Shown here one piece after another: positions 2,062 to 36,261 of a stretch of DNA of 36,661 nucleotides. The notes under the pieces are model-generated. The model did no database searches. It was given only the letters and a program-made list of their open reading frames with translations, and had not been told where the DNA came from. The DNA lies in the NCBI GenBank assembly GCA_031290135.1, contig JAITOE010000131.1, forward strand, positions 1-36,661, given 5' to 3'. The stretch comes from Eubacteriales Family XIII. Incertae Sedis bacterium (lineage in GTDB: Bacteria > Bacillota > Clostridia > Peptostreptococcales > Anaerovoracaceae). Every line of letters begins with the position of its first letter. Position 1 is the first letter of the stretch. The translations under genes were made by a program, and so were the position numbers.

Positions 2062-2294
2062 GAGGAAGTTATTAGGAGTGGGTTCAATACCTGCGGCAGG
2101 AAGATGAACACCTACCGCAACGAGGGCGGCGAGCAGCTGAGCGACATAACGACCGCGATTTTCATCGACCTCACGCAGGCGGCCGGGATTGCGAAAAAGC
2201 AGGTCCCTGAGATGACCGCGGTCGAGCAGTGGGCGGTGTTCCTCGCGAAGGCGAACGACCCAGGGCACCGGGAACTGATAAACGAAATTTTTGA

Positions 2295-2372
2295 GCACCT
2301 AACCCGATTTCTGAAAGAAATCGTTGGTAGGTGCCATGCAAGGCTCTCCAAAATCTATGATTTTGTGAGAGC
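2295..2372 (+). repeat. Two tandem hairpins inserted in the Rpn remnant
   Basis: Hairpin 1 (2295-2334, 40 nt) pairs GCACCTA with TAGGTGC, has a small internal loop, then GATTTCT pairs with AGAAATC around a GAA loop. Hairpin 2 (2343-2372) pairs GCTCTC-CAAAATC with GATTTTG-GAGAGC around TAT. Hairpin 1 has a same-length inverted relative at 29068-29107. Neither hairpin is followed by a T-run, so they are not simple terminators. Confidence 0.7.
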
Positions 2373-2401
2373 TACTGCGGAAACGTAAGGAGGGAATTTC
2401 C

Positions 2402-2620
2402 GTGGCGTATGAAATGCTGACATCAATCAGCACGGACGAGGACGAACGCGCCCGTTTCCGCTCCCGCCGCATGTGGGAAATGGACAGGGCGCACGAAAAA
2501 GCCGCGCGCGAGATTGAGCTGAATGAAATGAAAAAGCAATTAGCCGACAAGGACAAGACGCTTGCCGACAAGGACGCTCGCATCGCTGAATTAGAACGCA
2601 TGCTCAACGCGGGCCGGTAG
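2402..2620 (+). CDS. Possible free-standing C-terminal Rpn peptide
   Basis: GTG at 2402 follows GGAGGG at a plausible distance and opens 72 residues: AYEMLTSISTDEDERARFRS, then a coiled-coil-like tail with repeated LADKDKTLADKDARIAELER. This is exactly the C-terminal segment of Rpn proteins. Short C-terminal Rpn products made from an internal start have been described as antitoxins of the full-length nuclease in enterobacteria, so an expressed stub is conceivable. It could equally be dead sequence. Translation is inferred only from the ribosome site. Confidence 0.4.
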   Translation: MAYEMLTSISTDEDERARFRSRRMWEMDRAHEKAAREIELNEMKKQLADKDKTLADKDARIAELERMLNAGR

Positions 2621-8706: not shown

Positions 8707-8773
8707 CGTCATTGCAAAGTGTGCCGAAGCAATCCACCTCCTCTGGATTGCTTCGCTTCGCTCGCAACGACGG
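8707..8773. repeat. Dispersed palindromic repeat, CGTCATTGC type, copy 1
   Basis: CGTCATTGC...GAAGCAATCCA is mirrored by TGGATTGCTTCGCTTCGCT followed by CGCAACGACG. The same ends recur at about 32771-32848 and, in part, near 28937-29137, 32749-32763 and 36210-36261. Elements of this kind are widespread non-autonomous palindromes in GC-rich Firmicutes. Confidence 0.75.
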
Positions 8774-8827
8774 AGAATATGCGACCTGCAAGGCGGAATT
8801 AACCTGATTTTACAAGGAGGACACGCC

Positions 8828-14336: not shown

Positions 14337-17300
14337 TTACTTGCCTTCCTGCTCCTTCCGGCGCCGGGCGAACGCGTAGAACGCCGCCAGCAGGATGAGG
14401 AGCAGCAGGATGCCGGAGGCGACCACCGGGGCGGCGGGGAACCCGCCGTTTTTCGCCCCGTCCTCCAGGGCGTCCCCGGGCAGTGCGCCCGCGCCGCCCG
14501 CAAGTCCGTCCGCAAGGTCCGCCGGGCCGTCCGGCGGCGCGTCCGCCGGGAATCCGGGCGCGGCGCCCAGCGGAGTCGGGTACTCCTCGAAGACCCATTC
14601 CGCCAGGGGCTCATCCCAGTGCCACACGCCGAGGGGCACCCCGTCCTCGCCGATCTCCACGAAGAAGCCTTCTTCTTCGCCCGCGACCAGCGTGCTGTCC
14701 GGGGCGGACAGCGCCGGGGGCGTTTCCTGCCCTGCGGGGGGCCGCGAAGCCCCGGCGTTCCCGGCCTGGCTCCCGCCCGTGCCGTCGCCGCTTCCGTTCC
14801 CGGGCTGTGTGCTGTTGCCGTTGCCGCCGTTGCCGCCGTTCTGTCCGCCGCCGGGCGCCGCCGGCGGGTCAACGGACGGGTCAGCCGGAGGATCCGCGGG
14901 CGGGTCAGCCGGGGGATCCGCAGGCGGGTCAGCCGGCGGCGTCACGGGCGGGTCGGACGGGGGGTCAGCGGGCGGGTCGGCAGGCGGCGTGTAGCCGTTG
15001 CCGTCCCCCCCGGAACCCCATATGGCGTACACTGTCAGGTCGCCCGCCAGGACCGTGGTTGCCGTGAACGGGTTCCCGCCGCCGTTCGCCGCGGTGTTCC
15101 AGCCGGAGAAGGAATAACCGACGCGGACCGGGTTCGCGGGCATGGCGGCGCCCAGGGTGTTTTCCGGCGCGTGGACGGTGCGGGACGCGTCCCCCGCCGC
15201 CAGCGTGACGCCGTTCCCGTCAAAGGTGACTGTGTGGCGCCGCGTCCACTTCGCGTAAATTGTCAGGTCCGCGTCGGGCATGGCGCTGAGGGCCGTCACG
15301 GGATCCGTGAGGGCGGCGTTCAGGTGCCAGCCGTCGAAGCGGTGGCCGTCCCGGACGGGAGTCCCGTAGCCGGGCGCCGCGCTGACCGGGCTGCCCCAGG
15401 CCGCTGCGGCGGGCGCTATGATCCCGCCGGCCGGGTCGGTGACGGGATATTCCGCGCTGCCCCCCAGGTCGAAGGTCAGCGTCCAGGTGTTCAGCGTGTA
15501 CAGGGCCTCCAGGGTCAGGTCGCCGTAAATTCCTTCCGGGATGCGGTCCGCGGCGGCGCGGGAGGGGTCGCTGCGTTCCATGGTGAAAGCTTCCCCGGAG
15601 GCGTCCCGGGCGCCCGCCCACCCGGTGAACGTGTACCCCGTCCTCGCCGGCGGATCCGGGACGTCCAGGGGCAGGCCGTTGATGAAGTACGAGCCGCTGC
15701 CGGGCGCGCCGTCCGGGTAGACGTAGGTGATGCCGTAGGGAACGGCGGAGACCGCCCATTTTGCGTAGACCGTCAGGGGCGCGGCCGGCATGAGGGCGTC
15801 TGCGACCGGCTGCGTGAGGCCGCTGTCAAGATGCCAGCCCAGGAAGTCGTGGCCGGGGCGGACGGGGGCTATGCCGTAGTGCGCCGCGCCGTCGATCCGT
15901 TCCCCGGCGTCCAGGACGTCCCCGGAATCCCCGCCGGCTCCGGGAGCCGCCGGGTAGAGATCCGCGCGGTACACGCCCGCGCCCGCGTCGCCCATGTCAT
16001 ATGTCAGGGCATCCGTGTGGATCAGCCATTTCGCCTGCAGGACCAGGGTGTTCCCGTTCACGCCGTTCGCTTCCGTGAGCGGCGTGCCGCCCGGGCCGAA
16101 GACCCAGGGCGCGCCGGAGGGATCCGGCTCCGCGTGCCAGCCCAGGAAAGCATGGTCCGCCCGGACGGGATCCGGGTCCGGGGCGGCGGCGACCGTGCCG
16201 TCGTAATCCCCCGCGGGTGTCCTGCTCGCGGACGTTCCGCCGGCGTTCTGGTCGGTGTAGAACACGCCCGGCAGGTAGCGGTAGAGGATGCCGATGCTCT
16301 TGGGTGTCCATTGTGCGTACAGGGTGTGGTCCTCCGCCGCGGCCACCGCGGTGGACGCTTCCACCAGGCTGCCGCCCGCGGCTTCGGTGCGCCAGCCCGC
16401 GAAGTCGTAGCCCGTGCGGCTCATGGAAGGCAGCGCCCCGTAGGCTTGCCCGAAGACCGCGCTCTGGCTGTCCGGCGCCGCGGCGGAGGGGTCGCCCCCC
16501 GCGTTTGCGTCAAAGCTTACGGTGTAGCTTTTTCCCCGCCATATGGCGTAAAGGATGGCGCCGCCCGTCGTGTCGCCGTCCGTCAGGTCGTTGATGGCCG
16601 CCGCGTCCAAGGTGAAAGCATCCCCGCTGTAAGCCGCCTCGGCGGCCGTGTCGGATGCCGCCCGGGAGAAGCCCTGCAGGCCGTAACCCGTGCGGGACAG
16701 GTTTGTCTTTTCCGCCAGGGAAACCGAGTCCCCGATGTTCGCGGTCCGGTCCGCCATGCTCCCCGCCCCGCCGTTGGCGCCGAAGCGTATGGTGTAGGTC
16801 CTCTCCGTCCAGACGGCGTAGACGGTCACGCTGTCCCCCTGGAGGATCGCTGCTTCATCGATGAGGAGCTGCCCGTTCGTTCCGCCCGTCAGGGCGGGGC
16901 CGTCCGGGGTCTCCGACCAGCCCGCGAAGGCGTGGCCGGTGCGGCGCAGGCTTCCCGTGTTCCCCATCAGGTTCGCGGTGTTGCCGTCGTTGTAGACCGT
17001 CCCGTCCCAGGGGACGGTCCCGCCGTCGTTCCCGTTGCCGTCGTAGAGCACGTAATACGGGAGGGGCGGGGTCGCCCACACGGCGGTGAGCGTGACGGCG
17101 CTGTTCGCGTCGCCGGCCATCAGGGTGTTTATCGCCGCCGCGTCCAGGGTGAATCCGTCGCCGCCGTAGACGGGGGCGGATTCAAGCGCCGGGGACCCGG
17201 GGGAGAATCCCTTGAGCAGGTAGCGCTGCGACAGGACCGGGTTTCCGGTCAGGCCGCTCTTCCCGGCGAAGGAGACCGTCTCGCCGATCCGGGCTGTCAC

Positions 17301-20300
17301 GTCCGCCATGTTCCCCGTGCCGTAGCTGCCCGCGGAGAAGCTGAACGTGTAGGTCTTTTTCGTCCAGACGGCGTAGACTGTCTTCCGGGGGACGCCCGCG
17401 TCTTCCGCGAAGTCTATGACATGGCCGACGGAAAAGTCTGCATCGTTGCCCGCGCCGCTGTACGTGCTCCAGCCCGCGAGGCTGTATCCCGTCCGCGAGG
17501 GGCCCTCGGACGCCGAGGGGAAGTCCGCGGCCGTGAGCGCTGTCCCGTAGGTCAGGTTTATGGTGTTCGTCTTGCTTCCGTTCGTCCCGCCGTTGGCGTC
17601 GAAGGTGAGCGCCGCGTTGGCCTTCGGCGTCCACCGGGCTTTCAGCGTGACAGACGCCGTGAGGTCGTTTGCGGCCAGGTCCAGGTAGGCGTCGCCGCTT
17701 GTGACCCCGGTCTTCGTCCCGCCGGCGGTGACGTCCCAGCCCGCGAACGTATAGCCGTTCCTGGCGGGATTGGCGGCGGGCAGGAGGTTCGCGTCGTCCC
17801 ACTTCACGCCTGTCTTCGCGGAGATGGCGGAGGGGTTCCCGCCGTCGGTGTCATAGTTCACCGTGTAGACGTTCTGGTTCCACTTGGCGTATAAATTCAC
17901 GGTTTCCGTGCGGATGGCGTCCGTGCCGAAGGTCCAGGGGACGGATGCCGCCCGGTCCGTGTGCCAGCCCGCGAAGTTATAGCCCGTGCGGGACGGGTTC
18001 GCGGGTTCCGTGAGCTTGTCGCCGAACTTCTTGGCGGCGTTGGCGCTGTTCCCCGCCGCGTACTGGGTACTGTCCGCGCCGTCGTAATTCAGGTAGAACG
18101 CCACCGCCGCGTCCTTGACCGTCCAGCGGGCATAGAGGCTGTGGGGCGCCGCGTCGGCGACGTTGCTTTCGCCCGTCACAAGGCTGCCGGACGCGGGGGC
18201 GGTGTACCAGCCCGCGAAGTTATATCCGTAGCGGACGGGGTTCACGGACGACAGCGCGGTTCCGTAGGTCCTGCCGTAGCTCACCATGACGGAAGCCGGT
18301 ATCCCGCTCACGGTGCTGTCGCCGCCGGCATTGGGTTCAAGGGTCACGGCCAGCGCGGTCTTCTTGAATTTCAGGGTGACGGGAGCGGAGGCGTTGCCGG
18401 CCTTGTCCGTCACGGTTATGCTCACGCTGTATTCTTTCGACGGCGTGAACGGGGCGCTGTCTACGTTTATGGTAACAGTTCCTTCCGTGCCGCGGTCCAC
18501 GTGGTAGCCCGGCGGGAGGACGGTGAAAGCGCCGCCGCCGGTGACGGGCACGGCTTCCGCGGCTCCCGTGGTAAGGTCGTCCGCGGTGATCGCCACGCTG
18601 ACGTTGTTCGCGGCGGTTGAGGTATAGTCAAGGGGCGTGCCGGCGTCGGTGAAAGAGAAAACCAGGTTGCCCAGGGGGTTCTCCAGGGCTGATCCTACCG
18701 TGTCCGTCCGCACTACCGAGGGCGCGTTCGTGTCTTTGTAGCGCATGTAGGGGTTTTCGCCCCGCAGGTTTTCGTTGCCGGTCACCGTGACGCCCACGCC
18801 GGCGAGGTGCACCTTCAGGCCGTTCACGTCGGCCGGGTCATACAGCACATAGGGGTCTGCGGCGGTTCCGGCGGGCCTGCCGGAAAACAGCAGGACGAAG
18901 TCGCCCGACGTAATGTTCAGGCCGCCGTCGAAATAGAAGCTGCCGTCCGCGCCCACCTCGGCGACGGCGTCCAGCAGGGAATTGTCCGCGTCCGCCACCG
19001 CCGCGTTGCCGTCGCGGATGCCGTCTTTATTTGCGTCCGGGTACAGCTTGGCCGTGTAGCCCTGCGTGTAGGTGTAGTCCGTGAGGGGGGTCCCGTCGCT
19101 CTTCAGGAGCACCGCCTGCCCCTCCAAGGGGGTGGTGGCGGCGAAAGGCAGGTCGAAGCCCGTCAGGTCTTTCCGGGACGCGGCCGTGCCCAGGCTCCCC
19201 CCGCTGGTTCCGTTTATGAAGACGGCGGTGCTGTCCGCGGTCGCCCCGCTGCCGCCGAAGTCCACGAAGACACGGTCCGTGCCTCCCACGTCCACCACCT
19301 TGTACAGGCCGCCTGTCACGGAAGCGTTCAGGGGCTTGACGTGGCGGTCCTCCGGCATCAGCACCTCCAGCCGGTAGTAATGGCCGGCGTCGAAGTCGAT
19401 GTCCGTGATGTCAAAGCGGCCGGTCTTGGCGGGCTGGTCTATGTCGTAGGTGGTGACTACGGCTGTGGTGGGCGCCCAGCCGCCCGCGATGTCGCCCGTG
19501 TCGCTCTTCCAGAGGCGGAGGGCCACGCGCGCCAGGGGCTTGAAGCCGGCTTTCTGGTCGGGCGTGGCCGTGTTGCCCAGGCCGTCGCTGTCTAAGTAGA
19601 CGTAGCCGCCTATGCTGCCGGCGTCGTCTTTGGCGGCCGCCATCTGCAGGATGACCCGCCCGGTCTCCCGCAGCACGGACTGGTTCGCGTTATCCAGGGC
19701 GCTGTAGCCCATGGTGTTGTACGCCGCCCGCAGGGGAGGCGCGCTTGTGCGCGGGTAGCCGGGGGCTTCCTGCACGGCGGCGCTGAACTGCAGGTAGGCG
19801 ACCTGGCCGGGTTCAAGGGGGGCATTCAGCGTCACCTGCACCGCCCGCACCGCGGTGCCGGGGCTCTCCGTCCAGGCGCCGCTTCCGGAGGATCCGAGCC
19901 GCGCGGGGTCCGGGGATTCGGAAAATTTCAGGCTGTACCCGTTGGTCGGGACGGGCGGGGCGCCCATGTTGCGCCGGTCGCCGATCAGGACCTTGAAGTT
20001 GGAGGCGGCCGCCTGGGGCACGAGGCTGAACTGGGAGCCGCGCGGGTTGTCGCTTGTCACGTATTTGTCGCCGGCTCCCGGCATCAGGGCGGTCATCACG
20101 AAGCTGCGATAGCGCTGGGTGCCCATGTTCATCACGCCCATGCGGAAGTCCGCCGAGTAGCCCGGGATGATGGGGTCTATGATCTGCGGGTTCCCGGACG
20201 CGTCTACGGAGGAACGCCAGGCGTCCTCTCCCGTCAGGGAGGGGCGCACCATCAGCACGCTGTCCGCGCTGGCGTTTCCGGGTACGGTCATGATGCTTTT

Positions 20301-23300
20301 TCTGAGGTAGACGTCACTGTTTTCAAGCCCCAGCTGCTCTTCCAGGTCAAGATCCACGACCTGGCTGAGGTTATCGAACACTTCGTCCGCGAAATCCGTC
20401 TCCAGCTGGGTTTTCGCCGTTTTTGCCAGCACGGTGCTTCCGACGAGAACCGGCGTGAGCTTGCTCAGGTCCTGCGCCGCGTCAAGGCTGCCCATGCCCG
20501 CGTAAATGGGGTAATCGCCCGCGGCGATGCCGCTTTCAAGGGTGAAGGTGTTCTGGACGATGAGCGCCTCCGCTTGGAAGCCGCCCAGCCCCTGGCCCAG
20601 AAGACGGCTGCCCGGCGCCTTGAAGTAGAGCAGCTTGTAGCCGCCCCCTATGGAAATCTCCCCCGTCTCCTCGGGCGCCTGGGGGGAGGCGGGGTACTCC
20701 CGGTAGAGGGGATAGTTGTACCGGTAGGGAAAGTCGTTCTGAAAGTCGGTCTTCTGCATCCCCGTCAGATAAGGATAGTTTCCGAAGCGCTCCACTTTTA
20801 TCTGCTCCGGCAGCAGGTAGAAGACGTAAGGGGAGGAAAAGCTCCCATTCCCCGCGGACACCCCTATGTGGGAGCTGGTCTGCCAGACGCTGCCCGGTTC
20901 TTTCTCGCCGGAGAAGTAGGGGGTGCCGCCCAGGCCCTTGGGGGCTTCGTACATCCACGGGCTGAAGGTGTCCGTGGCGTTCCTGGCGGCGCCGACGGTG
21001 TAGGCGACTTCCCAGTCCGTGAGATACCCGGACGACCAGGGCACGGGGATGTCCGGGTTTCCCTCTGTGGCCGCGGCCGTGTTCTGGGTGCGGTAGGTGA
21101 ACGAGTCAAAGCCGAAAGAGAGCTTACCGGACGCGCTTCCCAGCACCTTGCCGTTGAGCGTAAGCCCTCCCCGGTAAACGAGGATGCCCGTGGCATAGTC
21201 CCGGAAGACAAGTTTCAGTTTTTCTATGTTGTTTTGATCCGCCGCCGGTATGCGAAAACCGAGGATGACCGGGCCGGAGGTTTCCCGGGTAGCCTGGCGG
21301 AGGGGCGCGTCCGGGGCGTCAGAGCGCAGCCGGTAGTACAGCGAGAGCAAATCGAAGTTGGACTGGGGCATGACGCTCTCCACGGATACCCCGGCGGGGA
21401 CGTCCAGCATCCCCGTCATGTCGTAGATGGGCGAGTCCACGCCGATGAAGCCTAAATAGACGCTCCAGTTGTCCCCCGCGCCGACGGTCTCTCCCGGGGA
21501 ATCCGCGCTTTTCAGGGTTCCGGGGGCTTCGAGCCCCTTGAATGTCATTGAACTCACACGCAGGTTCTGGGTCGTGAGGTTCACCTTGTAAGTCTTCGGG
21601 CCGTACGACACGGTGCCGCCGGACTGCAGGTCTTTCACCGTCACGTTCACCTCGTATGTGAATCCCTCGTGAACCGCCGTCAGGTTCAGGCCGGTACGAG
21701 TTGTGTAGTATCCATCAATAAAATACACCTGGTAGATGTCGTTGCCGTTGACGGGGCCTATGTCATAGTAGGCGCCTTTTCGCTCCGGATCTCCCATGTT
21801 TTCCAGGGGGCTTACCCGGGCAGTAAGCGCGTCCGCGTTGGAGGAACCGGGCACTTTCTTGGTGCCTATCTCGGCCGTGGACGCCAGGCCCGTGCCGGAG
21901 GTGCCGTAAAAACCCATGAGGCGAAGCACCTGCCAGGGCGCGAGCTGCGCCGCCGCGATCTCATCCGGGGTTTTGCTGTCCGGCTCCGTCGGCACCCCGG
22001 GGGTAACTTCCGCTTCCACGACCAGATGGGCGAAGCTGCGGCGGGCGGAGGGGTCGGCGTAGCCATTTTCAATGACATAACCCACGTTGCCGTTGTTGAC
22101 GCCCACGCCCACGCTGACGGAAGTCGTCCCATTGAAGCGCCAGACGTTGTCGCCCTGCACCACCAAGGGGACGTTTCCCGTGAAGCCGTAGGTCAGCGCA
22201 AACTCCCCGTCCACTGTCTGGGACGGAGAGACGGCGGAGGCGGCCAGGGTGACGGTATGCTGCGAATTCGAGACGGCGGTCGCCCCCAGCGCCTGCGCCA
22301 CCAGGATGTCCAGCTGGTATTCCGCCTGGGGGTTCATGGGGCTGGGCAGGGTGTAGGTCATCTCCGGGTTTCCGGCGGTGTACGCCACCGTCCCCGCCAC
22401 GGGCACGGGCTTCGTGGCGTAGGTGAACGCGGCGTCCGGCAAAGCGACGACCACCTTGCCGCCCAGCAGCGCCGCGTCGAAAGAGGTGTTCTTCACGGTA
22501 AGGCGCAGGCGGGCGGAGGGATTTGTTTCATCGAGGGTCGTGACGTCGCTGGCGACGGAAATGACCAGAATGTCATCCGCCAGGGAGATCATGAGGTTTT
22601 CTATGGCTTCTTCTTCCTCTTCGGGAAGGGGCTGTTCCCCGGGAATGGGTTCTTCTTCGCCCGGAAGGGTCTCTCCGGGGCTGTCCCCCGGGGCAGGCGC
22701 CACGGTGAAGTTCAGGACGGCGACCGGTTCGCCGGGGGATGTGCCGCCACCGGGGGCCGTGTCGTCACCGGAAGTCGGGGCGGGGGATGTACCGTCACCG
22801 GAAGTCGGGGCGGAAGCATCGGAACCTGAGGCCGGGGATGTGCCGGAACCGGAGGCCGGGGCGGGGGATGTGCCGTCACCGGAGGCCGGGGATGTGCCGG
22901 AGGCATCGTCACCGGAGGCCGGTGCGGGATCGCCGGAACCGCCGTCACCGGAGGCCGGGGCGGGGTCCGCAGCGCCGGAGGCCGTGCCGGAACCGGAGGC
23001 CGGGGGCGCGTACCCGTGGGAAAGCAGCGTCAGGCTGTAGTCGCCCGCCGCCGCAGTGAAGCTCAGGACGGCGGACCCGCTGACGGTGAGCGTCCGCGCC
23101 GCGCTGTCATACGCCGCGCCCGATCCGGTGCAGCTCCAGGCCATCCGGGATCTCCATGTAGGTCCGGGGCGCCTCCGGCGGGTTGTCGGCCCGGATCTGG
23201 AATACGGCGTCCTCCGCCGGACTTTCCCCAAGGAGCTGCAGCACGTCCGGGTTCTCCCCGGCCGCGGCGAACGCCGCGGCTCCCGTGCCGTCAGCAGGGG

Positions 23301-23490
23301 CAGGCGCGCCCGGAAACGCTCCCGTGTCGGTTGGCTGGCTGGTTGGCAGGCCGGCGGCAAAGGCACCCGTCCCGGTGCCGCAGACCAGCCCCAGGACCAG
23401 GACGAAGGACAGCAGCCGCGCCCATGCGCGCCGCTTCATTCCGCGGGTCCCGTTCCCGCCGTTCGTTTTATTCTTCGTTTTATTCTTCAT
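14337..23490 (-). CDS. Giant surface protein with Flg_new/InlB-like repeats; frameshift near the N-terminus
   Basis: About 3050 residues if one surplus base near 23110-23140 is ignored. The start ATG 23490 (site GGAGG) opens a signal peptide with a basic head and LLSFVLVLGLVCGTGTGAFA. That frame continues to RTYMEIPDGLELHR and hits a stop at 23107. The long frame takes over at AAYDSAARTLTVSGSAVLSF and runs to 14337. Order after the signal: a Pro/Ala/Ser/Gly/Asp linker (22735-23005), an acidic stretch, several beta-rich domains of DUF11-like character, an SdrD_B/Cna_B-like domain (GSIGGYVYLDSDGLG, about 19600), an Ig-like domain (about 18370-18680), 13 repeats with GY-F-GW...LYAKW (about 15015-18360), a PADP-rich wall-spanning stalk, and a C-terminal hydrophobic helix with RRRKEQEGK. 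No LPXTG is visible. Probable adhesin; frameshift could be decay, phase switching or assembly error. Confidence 0.85.
14863..14994 (-). repeat. Short tandem repeat coding for a PADP-rich stalk
   Basis: Units of 12 bases (GGGTCAGCCGGC-like on the plus strand) encode repeated PPADP, with variants PPSDP and PPVTP. This kind of proline stalk typically spans the cell wall. Repeat number is prone to change by slippage. Confidence 0.75.
22735..23005 (-). repeat. Degenerate tandem repeat coding for a PASGDG-type linker
   Basis: Units related to CCGGAGGCCGGGG (plus strand) encode repeated PASGDG, ASGSG and TSPASG. It forms a low-complexity linker behind the signal peptide and is a site for length variation. 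Confidence 0.75.
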
Positions 23491-23719: not shown

Positions 23720-24200
23720 GAAAAAAATGAAGAAAATATGAAATATGGTCAAAGATACCAGAATTCTGTGATTTTTGAACATTTTTGCATCCGTTCCGGC
23801 GCCGCCGGAAGACCCGCTGCGGAAGCCCTCGGGCGACCCGGATATTTTCGCCTGTTTCAGATTTTCTTTTGACAGTCCCCCCCGCGTGCACGGACGCGGG
23901 GCGCCGCCGCAGGCGGGACAACCCGGCGCGTCCCAATTACGTTGTGCGCACATAGAGCGCACATTTGGAACCTCAGGAGGGCGGATGCAACGCGGAGACG
24001 CTTCTGCTTGAGCCCGGCGGCGAAAATAGCCTTTGCGTTTTTGCCGGGGAGTTTGCCGGAGTGGTTTTTTGCCGTTTTTTGTTTTTTACGTAAGCGTCAA
24101 ATAAATTTTTTACCCGTTTTTTGCCGGGTAAAAAAGTGCAATTCACGGTAAAAAAGTGCTTACTTAAAAAAGTGCTTAAAAAAGTGCTGTAAAAAAAGTG
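23720..24200. repeat. Gene-free stretch with palindromes and an AAAAAGTGC repeat array
   Basis: No convincing gene. It holds an inverted repeat TGTGCGC/GCGCACA (23943-23963), a hairpin TTTTTTACCCG/CGGGTAAAAAA (24106-24135), and five copies of AAAAAGTGC (about 24131, 24151, 24167, 24179 and 24192) leading directly into the first antitoxin promoter. Confidence 0.6.
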
Positions 24201-24201
24201 C

Positions 24202-24230
24202 TTGCGGAAAAGGGCGGAAGATGGTATCAT
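24202..24230 (+). promoter_or_regulatory. Promoter of antitoxin RNA A
   Basis: TTGCGG (24202-24207), 17 bases, TATCAT (24225-24230). The same arrangement recurs at 24639-24667 and 24853-24881. Confidence 0.6.
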
Positions 24231-24236
24231 GAAAGC

Positions 24237-24326
24237 AGTGAAGGACTGCCGCTCTTAGTCTGGCGGTTGTCCTCTAACTTGTGGTTAGGGAAAACCGCTT
24301 TCTAACGAAGGCGGTTTTCCTTTTTC
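24237..24326 (+). ncRNA. Predicted antisense RNA antitoxin A
   Basis: About 90 nt from the promoter to an intrinsic terminator. Three hairpins can be drawn: GGAC-GCCGC/GGCGG-GTCC near the 5' end, CTAAC-TTGTG-GTTAG in the middle, and the terminator GAAAACCGC/GCGGTTTTC followed by CCTTTTT. Its 3' part is complementary to the end of the toxin gene at 24302-24412, the layout of Firmicutes type I systems with overlapping 3' ends. RNA ends are predicted, not observed. Confidence 0.6.
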
Positions 24327-24412
24327 CGGCCCTCCGTCCAGACGTAAATCTGGAAAACGAGGGCCGCGGCCGTAACCAAGAGCGTCAAAGCGCCGATGAT
24401 GATCGCAGCCAT
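24302..24412 (-). CDS. Type I toxin, 36-residue membrane peptide (copy A)
   Basis: ATG 24412 reads MAAIIIGALTLLVTAAALVF then QIYVWTEGRKKENRLR: one hydrophobic helix followed by a strongly basic tail, the form of Fst/TxpA/holin-like type I toxins. AAGGAGG lies nine bases before this ATG; an ATG six bases earlier would sit too close. A consensus promoter lies at 24500-24528, giving a leader of about 80 bases. The stop codon lies inside the terminator loop of the antisense RNA, so the two transcripts overlap tail to tail. Such peptides insert in the membrane and depolarise it if the RNA antitoxin is lost. Confidence 0.65.
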   Translation of the reverse strand: MAAIIIGALTLLVTAAALVFQIYVWTEGRKKENRLR

Positions 24413-24528: not shown

Positions 24529-24638
24529 TCGTCAGATTTTTCATTTTTTTGGTGTTTTTTGCAGTAACTGGCGTGGATTGCGAAAGTCGGCTGCGCCGTT
24601 CCGGAGGCGGGCGGTTTTTTGCCGGGGTGAAAAAGTTC

Positions 24639-24667
24639 TTGCGGAAAAGGGCGGAAAGTGGTATCAT
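24639..24667 (+). promoter_or_regulatory. Promoter of antitoxin RNA B
   Basis: TTGCGG (24639-24644), 17 bases, TATCAT (24662-24667), part of a 194-base duplication of 24201-24394. Confidence 0.6.
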
Positions 24668-24673
24668 GAAAGC

Positions 24674-24763
24674 AGTGAAAGACTGCCGCTCTTAGTCTGG
24701 CGGTTGTCCTCTAACGAATTGTTAGCGAAAACCGCTTTCTAACGAAGGCGGTTTTCCTTTTTC
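24674..24763 (+). ncRNA. Predicted antisense RNA antitoxin B (duplicate)
   Basis: Nearly identical to RNA A, with the same promoter spacing and terminator (GAAAACCGC 24727-24735, GCGGTTTTC 24748-24756, then T-run). The main difference is in the middle hairpin: both have CTAAC/GTTAG arms, but the five-base loop is GAATT here and TTGTG in A. Its own toxin frame lacks a start, so it would be an orphan antitoxin or decoy. Confidence 0.55.
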
Positions 24764-24831
24764 CGGCCCTCCGTCCAGACGTAAATCTGGAAAACGAGGG
24801 CCGCGGCCGTAACCAAGAGCGTCAAAGCGCC
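24739..24831 (-). pseudogene. Type I toxin copy B, start region lost
   Basis: The frame encodes ALTLLVTAAALVFQIYVW and the basic tail identical to toxin A. The duplication ends at 24831, so the first residues, ribosome site and promoter are missing, and unrelated GC-rich sequence replaces them. Confidence 0.6.
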
Positions 24832-24852
24832 GTCCCCCTTCCGGATGGAGGC

Positions 24853-28567: not shown

Positions 28568-28622
28568 GCTTCACCTTTCAGTTGTAGTATTATGGATTTT
28601 AGGTAATGTGGTTATTTCAATA

Positions 28623-28744
28623 CGTATAATAGCCGCCCCTTGGCTGTCATACCATAAATGCTTGCATTTATGGTACTGCCATCTCCGGCTGTAGCCGGAG
28701 GGCACTCTAATCCGGTATAATAGCCGCCCCTTGGCTATTATACC
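28623..28744. repeat. Palindrome cluster upstream of surE
   Basis: The unit GTATAATAGCCGCCCCTTGG occurs twice (from 28624 and 28715). The second copy is a perfect palindrome, GGTATAATAGCC/GGCTATTATACC. Between them lie two more perfect stems: ACCATAAATGC/GCATTTATGGT (28651-28674) and CTCCGGCT/AGCCGGAG (28683-28700). The last stem core recurs at 28962-28977. Confidence 0.7.
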
Positions 28745-28803
28745 ATAAAACAAACCTTGCGAAAGACATTTTTTTGCGGCATTTTTTGTTACGCATGGTG
28801 CCA

Positions 28804-28878: not shown

Positions 28879-28936
28879 ACAAAAAGAAGCAAGAAATTTA
28901 AAAATCCATGGTTTCGGATGGATATGGGGCAGGGGC

Positions 28937-29137
28937 TGGATTGCTTCGGCGGTGAACTCTTATCCGGCTAAAGCCGGAGAGTTCTGCGGCAGCAAAGCTG
29001 CCCGCATAAGGTTCGCTTAGCTATTTCCTGCCTACGGCATGAAATAGAGCGAAACCATTATCGCACGGCACCTACCATCCATTTGCTGTGCAAATGGGGT
29101 TAGGTGCGCGTCGCTTCGCTCCTCGCAATGACGGAGG
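28937..29137 (+). repeat. Dispersed repeat half, interrupted by a 162-base multi-hairpin insertion
   Basis: TGGATTGCTTCG (28937-28948) and TCGCTTCGCTCCTCGCAATG (29111-29130) are contiguous in the copy at 32812-32845 but are separated here by 162 bases. The insert forms successive stems: GAACTCT..TCCGGCT/AGCCGGA-GAGTTC (28954-28985), GCGGCAGC/GCTGCC-GC (28986-29005), a long stem closed by GGTTCGCT/AGCGAAACC (29010-29056), and the 40-nt hairpin GCACCTA/TAGGTGC (29068-29107). Confidence 0.65.
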
Positions 29138-32744: not shown

Positions 32745-32848
32745 CCCTCCGTCATTGCGAGCGTACTCCCTCCGTCATTGCGAGCGCAGCGAAGCAATCC
32801 AGAGCGCAGTATGGATTGCTTCGTCGCTTCGCTCCTCGCAACGACAAA
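32745..32848. repeat. Dispersed palindromic repeat, full copy plus a partial copy
   Basis: CCCTCCGTCATTGCGAGCG (32745-32763) is a truncated end. The full element follows: TCCGTCATTGCGAGCGCAGC, GAAGCAATCCA, then TGGATTGCTTCGTCGCTTCG and CTCCTCGCAACGAC. It lies between the SLH gene and the DUF1538 gene. Confidence 0.75.
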
Positions 32849-36180: not shown

Positions 36181-36209
36181 TGGCATATCCGCATATTGCA
36201 CGTTATTGC

Positions 36210-36261
36210 GAGCGAGCGACGTTACAAGCGAAATTGCGGTCAAAGCGATGCAATCCGGCGG
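36210..36261. repeat. Degenerate copy of the dispersed palindromic repeat
   Basis: GTTATTGCGAGCGAGCGACG and, further on, AAGCGATGCAATCCGG resemble the ends of the complete element at 32771-32848, with several changes. No gene was found in 36024-36301. Confidence 0.4.

Follow-up and report, generated by a model that had tools for sequence, protein, structure and literature searches.

The analysed stretch of DNA (the window; 36,661 nt, contig JAITOE010000131.1) originates from a bacterium of Eubacteriales Family XIII. Incertae Sedis. It contains two copies of a 40-nt hairpin (designated hp1), one on each strand, whose positions are presented in Table 1 together with those of the adjoining features. 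Copy 1 separates the two parts of a split reading frame, and copy 2 is located within a repeat resembling the CGTC-tagged REPs. Both hairpins, their agreement at 31 of 40 positions and three compensated base pairs of the inner stem had been described in the initial annotation, and were confirmed in the sequence. The closing motif with the spacing of hp1 occurs twice in the window, compared with a mean of 0.03 in shuffled sequences, none of which (0 of 100) reached two. The same annotation had named the split frame a broken Rpn gene. Copy 1 does lie between the two halves, but the pieces are not recognized as Rpn by Pfam or NCBIfam, and the genome of the window yielded no intact paralogue of the gene; the label is plausible, although unconfirmed.

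The window also carries (i) copies or fragments of a CGTCATTGCGAG...GAAGCAATCCA repeat, which resembles CGTC-tagged REPs, at four places, (ii) the hairpins CCATAAATGCTTGCATTTATGG and GGTATAATAGCC-GCCCCTT-GGCTATTATACC beside copy 2, possibly representing another repeat family, (iii) two direct repeats of 203 nt, 96% identical and 437 nt apart, which contain the hairpin GGAAAACCGCTTTCTAACGAAGGCGGTTTTC, and (iv) a repeat-rich open reading frame of 3009 aa, probably encoding a surface protein.

Table 1. Positions of the two hairpin units and of other features in the window.
Feature	Position	Strand	Remarks
Split reading frame, 5′ part	2104-2293	+	interrupted by copy 1 (2294-2378)
Copy 1, target-side dinucleotide TG	2292-2293	+	complementary to linker CA
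Copy 1, single bulged A	2294	+	separates target dinucleotide from hp1; regarded as base 1 of the inserted unit
Copy 1, hp1 (subtype A)	2295-2334	+	stem segments of 6, 3 and 8 bp, separated by a bulged A and by a 2-nt bulge in the 3′ arm; loop of 3 nt
Copy 1, linker CAT	2335-2337	+	CA (2335-2336) is the putative guide
Copy 1, hp2	2338-2378	+	closing GCA/TGC, AG/TAC internal loop, 7 bp, inner stem
Copy 1, right-end dinucleotide position	2379-2380	+	GG in this copy; mostly TG or another NG elsewhere
Split reading frame, 3′ part	2402-2617	+	only weak coiled-coil matches, below Pfam cut-offs
CGTCATTGCGAG...GAAGCAATCCA repeat copies or fragments	8741-8775; 32770-32804; 36190-36215; 28932-29131
Repeat-rich open reading frame	14337-23366	-
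203-nt direct repeats	24193-24395; 24630-24832
Hairpins beside copy 2	28600-28760
Copy 2, rest of hp2	28949-28984	-	resumes past the nested element
Nested element of a second two-hairpin family	28986-29060	-	TAATGGTTTCGCT...AGCGAACCTTATG...; GG flank, CC linker
Copy 2, GCGA	29061-29064	-	first four bases of hp2, ahead of the nested insertion
Copy 2, linker CGT	29065-29067	-
Copy 2, hp1 (subtype B)	29068-29107	-
Copy 2, target-side dinucleotide CG	29109-29110	-	complementary to linker CG
CGTC-REP-like repeat, upstream part	29111-29131	-	..TCATTGCGAGGAGCGAAGCGA; interrupted by copy 2, resumes at 28948-28932

Inspection of the copies revealed that hp1 is the left part, about half, of a two-hairpin unit of 86 nt (subtype B) or 87 nt (subtype A). 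The unit is composed of one bulged base, hp1 (40 nt), a 3-nt linker, a second hairpin designated hp2 (40-41 nt) and an end dinucleotide. Downstream of every intact copy of hp1 in the genome of the window lie C[AGC]T and hp2, oriented in the same way, and in tandem copies the period of 86-87 nt equals the length of the unit. Both ends are hairpins, each of them backed by covariation, and no inverted repeats between the ends of the unit were detected by inspection. Folding yielded z scores of -7.6 as RNA and -6.3 as DNA.

A second hairpin had previously been noted downstream of both copies of hp1. In copy 1 it is indeed part of the unit. Copy 2 (29108 down to 28949), which lies within the CGTC-REP-like repeat, is itself split: after CGTGCGA its hp2 is interrupted by an element of a second two-hairpin family, with the layout TAATGGTTTCGCT...AGCGAACCTTATG followed by GCGGGCAGC TTT GCTGCCGC and the same design of flank and linker (GG/CC). 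The hp1 pattern of this nested element has one other exact match in the genome (G000, contig C5:3398-3454). Three points had escaped the initial annotation: the double length of the element, the pairing of its linker with the flank and the second element nested in copy 2.

The proposal that the fold, and not the sequence, is maintained was borne out very strongly. In an alignment of 40 diverse hp1 sequences, 98.2% of 760 cells pair, and 132 cells carry double changes, compared with 36 in shuffles; sliding the partner columns by 1-3 positions destroys the signal. Within the whole unit, 31 of the 32 stem pairs show double changes (588 cells vs 141 in shuffles; 124 matches, 102 of them distinct), although these figures lean towards the model, since the alignment was fitted to it. 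None of the 40 hp1 sequences deviates in the bulged A or in the CC/GG steps, and the asymmetric 2-nt bulge is also kept. The pair beside the bulge covaries (A-T / T-A) and the bulged base is therefore the A of CCTA. Very few wobble pairs occur in hp1 (about 10 of 746 paired cells), and in both hairpins G-U pairs are scarce, with the exception of one closing pair in hp2. This scarcity points weakly to a constraint on DNA pairing rather than on RNA.

Covariation might also arise if the fold were not selected at all, by quasi-palindrome correction, in which one arm of a decaying repeat is copied from the other. In three cases hp1 has become a perfect palindrome with its bulges removed (L014, 1501-1539; L022, 1005-1043; and the second unit of L094), as expected from such correction. 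As a general explanation it is nevertheless quite improbable, since it would erase the asymmetry that is invariant in the alignment and conserved, as regards the bulge, across genera. Nor would it account for a match between flank and linker (see below) that crosses the border between host and element and extends over exactly two bases.

The motif GCACCTA-N(16-40)-TAGGTGC is found at 26 places in the 2.76-Mb genome of the window. Using a covariance model of the whole unit, built from 13 subtype-B copies, we detected approximately 70 dispersed copies in this genome (E < 1e-3), while a model of hp1 only revealed related units in 42 of 297 genomes sampled from the order of the window, representing 27 of 136 genera. 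The further covarying copies that the initial annotation proposed to look for, and whose lack would have refuted it, are clearly abundant, and they continue to pair. The carriers named by a pattern scan include Emergencia, Peptoniphilus, Anaerococcus and Bacilliculturomica, as well as related metagenome-assembled genomes; the same type of scan detected no element in viral contigs. The two hairpins of the window are therefore members of a large, undescribed family of repeats of about 86 bases in gut anaerobes, which are presumably mobile. Literature searches returned no description of the family. The copies are dispersed and short, and arrays consist of identical non-coding units.

Copies are located just after stop codons or terminators, in rRNA spacers and within genes. 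Spacers of rRNA operons (16S-23S, 23S-5S) hold elements in G150 (L194-L196, L214-L221) and in Anaerococcus (L173, L176, L179). In two operons of G150 the 16S-23S spacer is of another type and has a different hairpin in the corresponding position; the rRNA spacers of this genome therefore provided no clean empty site. Longer copies in Anaerococcus, for which a HEARO/omega-RNA nature was considered, proved to be 23S-5S spacers with no Rfam RNA match, and this idea was also abandoned.

The initial annotation had left open whether the hairpins represent a mobile palindromic element or a structured RNA. As an RNA (the 3′ end of an mRNA, or an rRNA spacer or processing element), the unit would have proliferated through ordinary duplication and been retained because of its fold, which would suit the strong covariation of both hairpins and the positions past stop codons or terminators and in rRNA spacers. 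The copies occur, however, in both orientations relative to the neighboring genes (both genes in the direction of hp1 in 20 cases, both in the opposite direction in 9, convergent in 7 and divergent in 3), they contain very few G-U pairs apart from the hp2 closing pair, and they are nested in other repeats and in genes. No Rfam match was obtained in the window at the gathering score, or at hp1 in eight carrier loci with E up to 1. We regard an RNA as improbable, having found no positive support for it, and favor a mobile element because of the dispersed, nested and tandem copies and of pairs of filled and empty sites that differ by one unit.

Most copies share a further feature, which is new: a two-base linker word matches the DNA beside the landing site. 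The first two bases of the linker are the exact reverse complement of the host dinucleotide upstream of hp1, from which it is separated by one bulged base, in 99 of 113 unique contexts. Among 129 solo or first copies, pairing at the two positions reaches 0.89 and 0.93, compared with 0.15-0.22 at the next three and 0.09-0.50 in slid controls. Nine pairs of flank and linker words were observed (TG/CA, TT/AA, GG/CC, CG/CG, TA/TA, GA/TC, AC/GT, GC/GC and TC/GA). At junctions inside tandem arrays the match is exact in only 6 of 16 cases (Fisher p 3e-5), and it is therefore mainly a property of the host-element border. The main subfamily in the genome of the window has a constant guide (TG/CA). In G200, otherwise near-identical hp1 bodies carry different matched words (TT/AA and TA/TA), and in G020 the words are GG/CC, AC/GT, AG/CT and GC/GC.

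Empty target sites, the existence of which had been suggested as a check, were identified among the CGTC-REP-like repeats of the window's genome, which serve as landing sites and are also present in empty versions. The filled and empty forms differ by 86 nt at four sites (91 vs 5 nt once, 86 vs 0 nt three times), by 85 nt at a repeat site whose copy is itself one base shorter, and by 85 nt at the GTCGCTGACGCTTG site. The gain is thus one unit (85-86 nt; gaps of 86 vs 0, 91 vs 5 and 85 vs 0 nt), apparently without further duplication of the target, at five or six repeat sites of the same genome. Insertions are located at various points of another repeat, within other elements and, in G245, in the hp2 loop of other copies. 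We also considered that the flank word might be borne by the element, as L044 and L083 have TG on the left where the common repeat has CG. This idea was weakened by the presence of empty CTTTG-variant repeats: as empty repeats of the CTT[C/T]G site with TTTG exist, the host DNA may have supplied the TG found upstream of inserted copies.

In 27 of 52 contexts (3 expected), at least the first two bases of the unit recur in the right flank, with an identity to the start of the unit ranging from 0 to 24 or more nt. This repetition seems to reflect partly tandem remnants and partly target choice, and possibly duplication. At an orthologous locus of a G200 congener, which lacks the element exactly at a stop codon, the filled form in G200 has TTTG on both sides, explicable by microhomology due to chance, by an end word or by a short duplication (4-6 nt). 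The absence of target duplication is hence not certain everywhere, in view of the 27 of 52 right flanks and of this one orthologous empty site.

These flanks bear on the reading of the unit as a classic MITE of 83-84 nt, mobilized by a double-strand (DDE-type) transposase, whose di- or trinucleotide flanks would be target-site duplications. The repeated right flanks, the paired TTTG of the G200 locus and a gain of 86 nt, which equals 83 nt plus a 3-nt duplication, would all fit. The duplications would, however, vary in length from 0 to 7 nt, several sites have unlike left and right words (e.g. TG and CG in L044), the ends are not inverted repeats of each other, as judged by inspection, and the complementarity of linker and flank would be left unexplained. 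We consider a MITE of this type fairly unlikely.

We also searched for an enzyme that could mobilize the unit. Y1 transposases are absent from many multi-copy carriers (G302, G191, G132, G194, G161, G242, G115, G206, G307, G092, G020, G025 and G030), including G302, a single contig that is 98% complete, and G191 with 16 hp1 matches; G011 encodes 11 Y1 genes and has none of the elements. No match to the hp1, hp2 or whole-unit models was found within the flanks (about 1.5 kb) of the Y1 genes examined, near which no autonomous parent with tnpA and matching ends was detected either. A general association with Y1 transposases was therefore rejected. A pair of hp1 copies 3.09 kb apart, present twice in G150, was considered as an autonomous parent and dismissed, as the two copies lie in the 16S-23S and 23S-distal rRNA spacers. 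The RAYT-like Y1 genes of the window's genome (L151, 526-1296, and L153, 315-1178, both on the minus strand) have no hp1 in their vicinity; they are instead surrounded by repeats of a different REP-like unit, one frame of which encodes RTNEPSPF. Reverse transcriptases (RVT_1) are missing from this genome and from most of the carriers tested, and their association as a general rule was likewise rejected. Any single absence is weak evidence, since some of the genomes are incomplete, but taken together the absences argue against a dedicated partner, be it Y1 or a reverse transcriptase, that resides in these genomes.

The lack of RVT_1 also makes very improbable a retro-type or rolling-circle copying of a multimeric or circular template, which would yield tandem and partial units and in which the linker would be a fold-back copy of the target. 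Such copying would agree with second units truncated at variable points (L004, L034, L038, L091, L116), with the TTTG duplicated around L242 and with near-identical hairpins that carry different matched guides in one genome, but not with the guide of the main subfamily in the window's genome, which is constant (TG/CA) instead of being re-copied at each site.

The unit is repeated, structurally conserved, inserted whole and adjoins a dinucleotide complementary to its linker; from this we infer its mobility. Our preferred explanation, to which we assign about even chances, is a non-autonomous mobile DNA element of 86-87 nt, which is handled as folded DNA and whose linker acts as a target guide in the manner of IS200 and REP elements. 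The bulged hairpins of the unit, its short guide-like word and the gain of whole units agree with the logic of the IS200/IS605 and REP systems. According to this model, a single-strand DNA transposase or recombinase acting in trans would recognize the bulged hairpins, and the linker would pair with the host dinucleotide across the foot of hp1, so that the end of the target abuts the start of the element. One or more units could then be joined at the target without its duplication, and a single central word could be used twice, for the target at the hp1 foot and for the end dinucleotide that follows hp2. The absence of Y1 from many carriers and the location of IS200/IS605 guides 5′ of each hairpin, and not between them, count against this mechanism. 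The enzyme may be rare, lost or of a different class.

It is also conceivable, but rather unlikely, that the units form a class of their own of guide-carrying mobile DNA: a minimal two-hairpin unit in which a central two-base word, differing from copy to copy in one genome, picks or copies the target, and whose enzyme is neither Y1 nor a reverse transcriptase. If no Y1 enzyme is involved, the system would point to an unrecognized DNA-mobilizing enzyme in Clostridia. Orphan palindromic repeats are common and, to our knowledge, their movement and choice of sites are mostly unknown. In the elements described here, the target word is readable in each copy and matched by the element, and empty sites are available in the genome and in congeners; the rule that the linker selects the target is therefore directly testable, with named carriers such as Emergencia, Peptoniphilus and Anaerococcus as starting material.

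The two-hairpin unit can be compared with several known systems. The BOX elements of streptococci are modular hairpin repeats with tandem units and without a transposase of their own. By description, they comprise other modules and occur in other hosts, and we know of no flank-complementary linker in them. The attC sites of integrons are imperfect hairpins acting as folded single strands, but they have R and L boxes with extrahelical bases and are arranged in cassette arrays next to intI, in contrast to the 40-nt hp1, which has its own fixed bulge and is dispersed singly. Unlike DDE-type MITEs, the unit shows no terminal inverted repeats on inspection and no target duplication of fixed length.

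The CGTC-tagged REPs (RPE-4, RPE-6, dRS3) are also orphan repeats, without a dedicated transposase, and a survey from 2013 recorded them in five phyla, the Firmicutes not being among them (PMC3733652). Repeats of a CGTC-like type share the genome of the window with the two-hairpin units and serve as their landing sites. CGTC-tagged REPs have, however, one hairpin per unit and a constant tag, and their hairpins and ends are different.

The greatest similarity is to REP/REPIN/BIME elements with TnpA-REP (RAYT) and to the ends of IS200/IS605 elements and the palindromic elements derived from them. Bulged hairpins and guide-selected cleavage dinucleotides have been documented for TnpA-REP and IS608, and in the IS200/IS605 and REP systems the word at the foot of the hairpin, which selects the cleavage dinucleotide, is reprogrammable (PMC8266576, PMC6006769). 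Like REPs, the units are short imperfect bulged palindromes, mostly intergenic and present in tens of copies, with a conserved irregularity of the stem (the invariant bulged A and asymmetric 2-nt bulge of hp1) and a guide-like word comparable to that which selects the cleavage dinucleotide beside the REP hairpin (PMC8266576). They differ in having (i) a pair of unlike hairpins, always in the same order, that share one central guide, (ii) no constant GTAG or CGTC tag, the flank words being variable (TG, TT, GG, CG, TA, GA, AC, GC, TC), and (iii) no RAYT/TnpA-REP gene flanked by their palindromes among the Y1 genes examined, some carriers being devoid of any Y1. As compared with IS200/IS605, the guide is placed 3′ of hp1 (i.e. 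5′ of hp2) instead of 5′ of each hairpin, the target is limited to two bases, which are not the same in all copies of a genome, and no autonomous parent was found near the Y1 genes examined. Because the constant tag and the linked transposase are missing, the unit was assigned neither to the REP nor to the IS200/IS605 elements. With the latter it nevertheless shares two terminal hairpins and, apparently, a pairing of guide and target and a mode of insertion in which whole units are added 3′ of a short target word.
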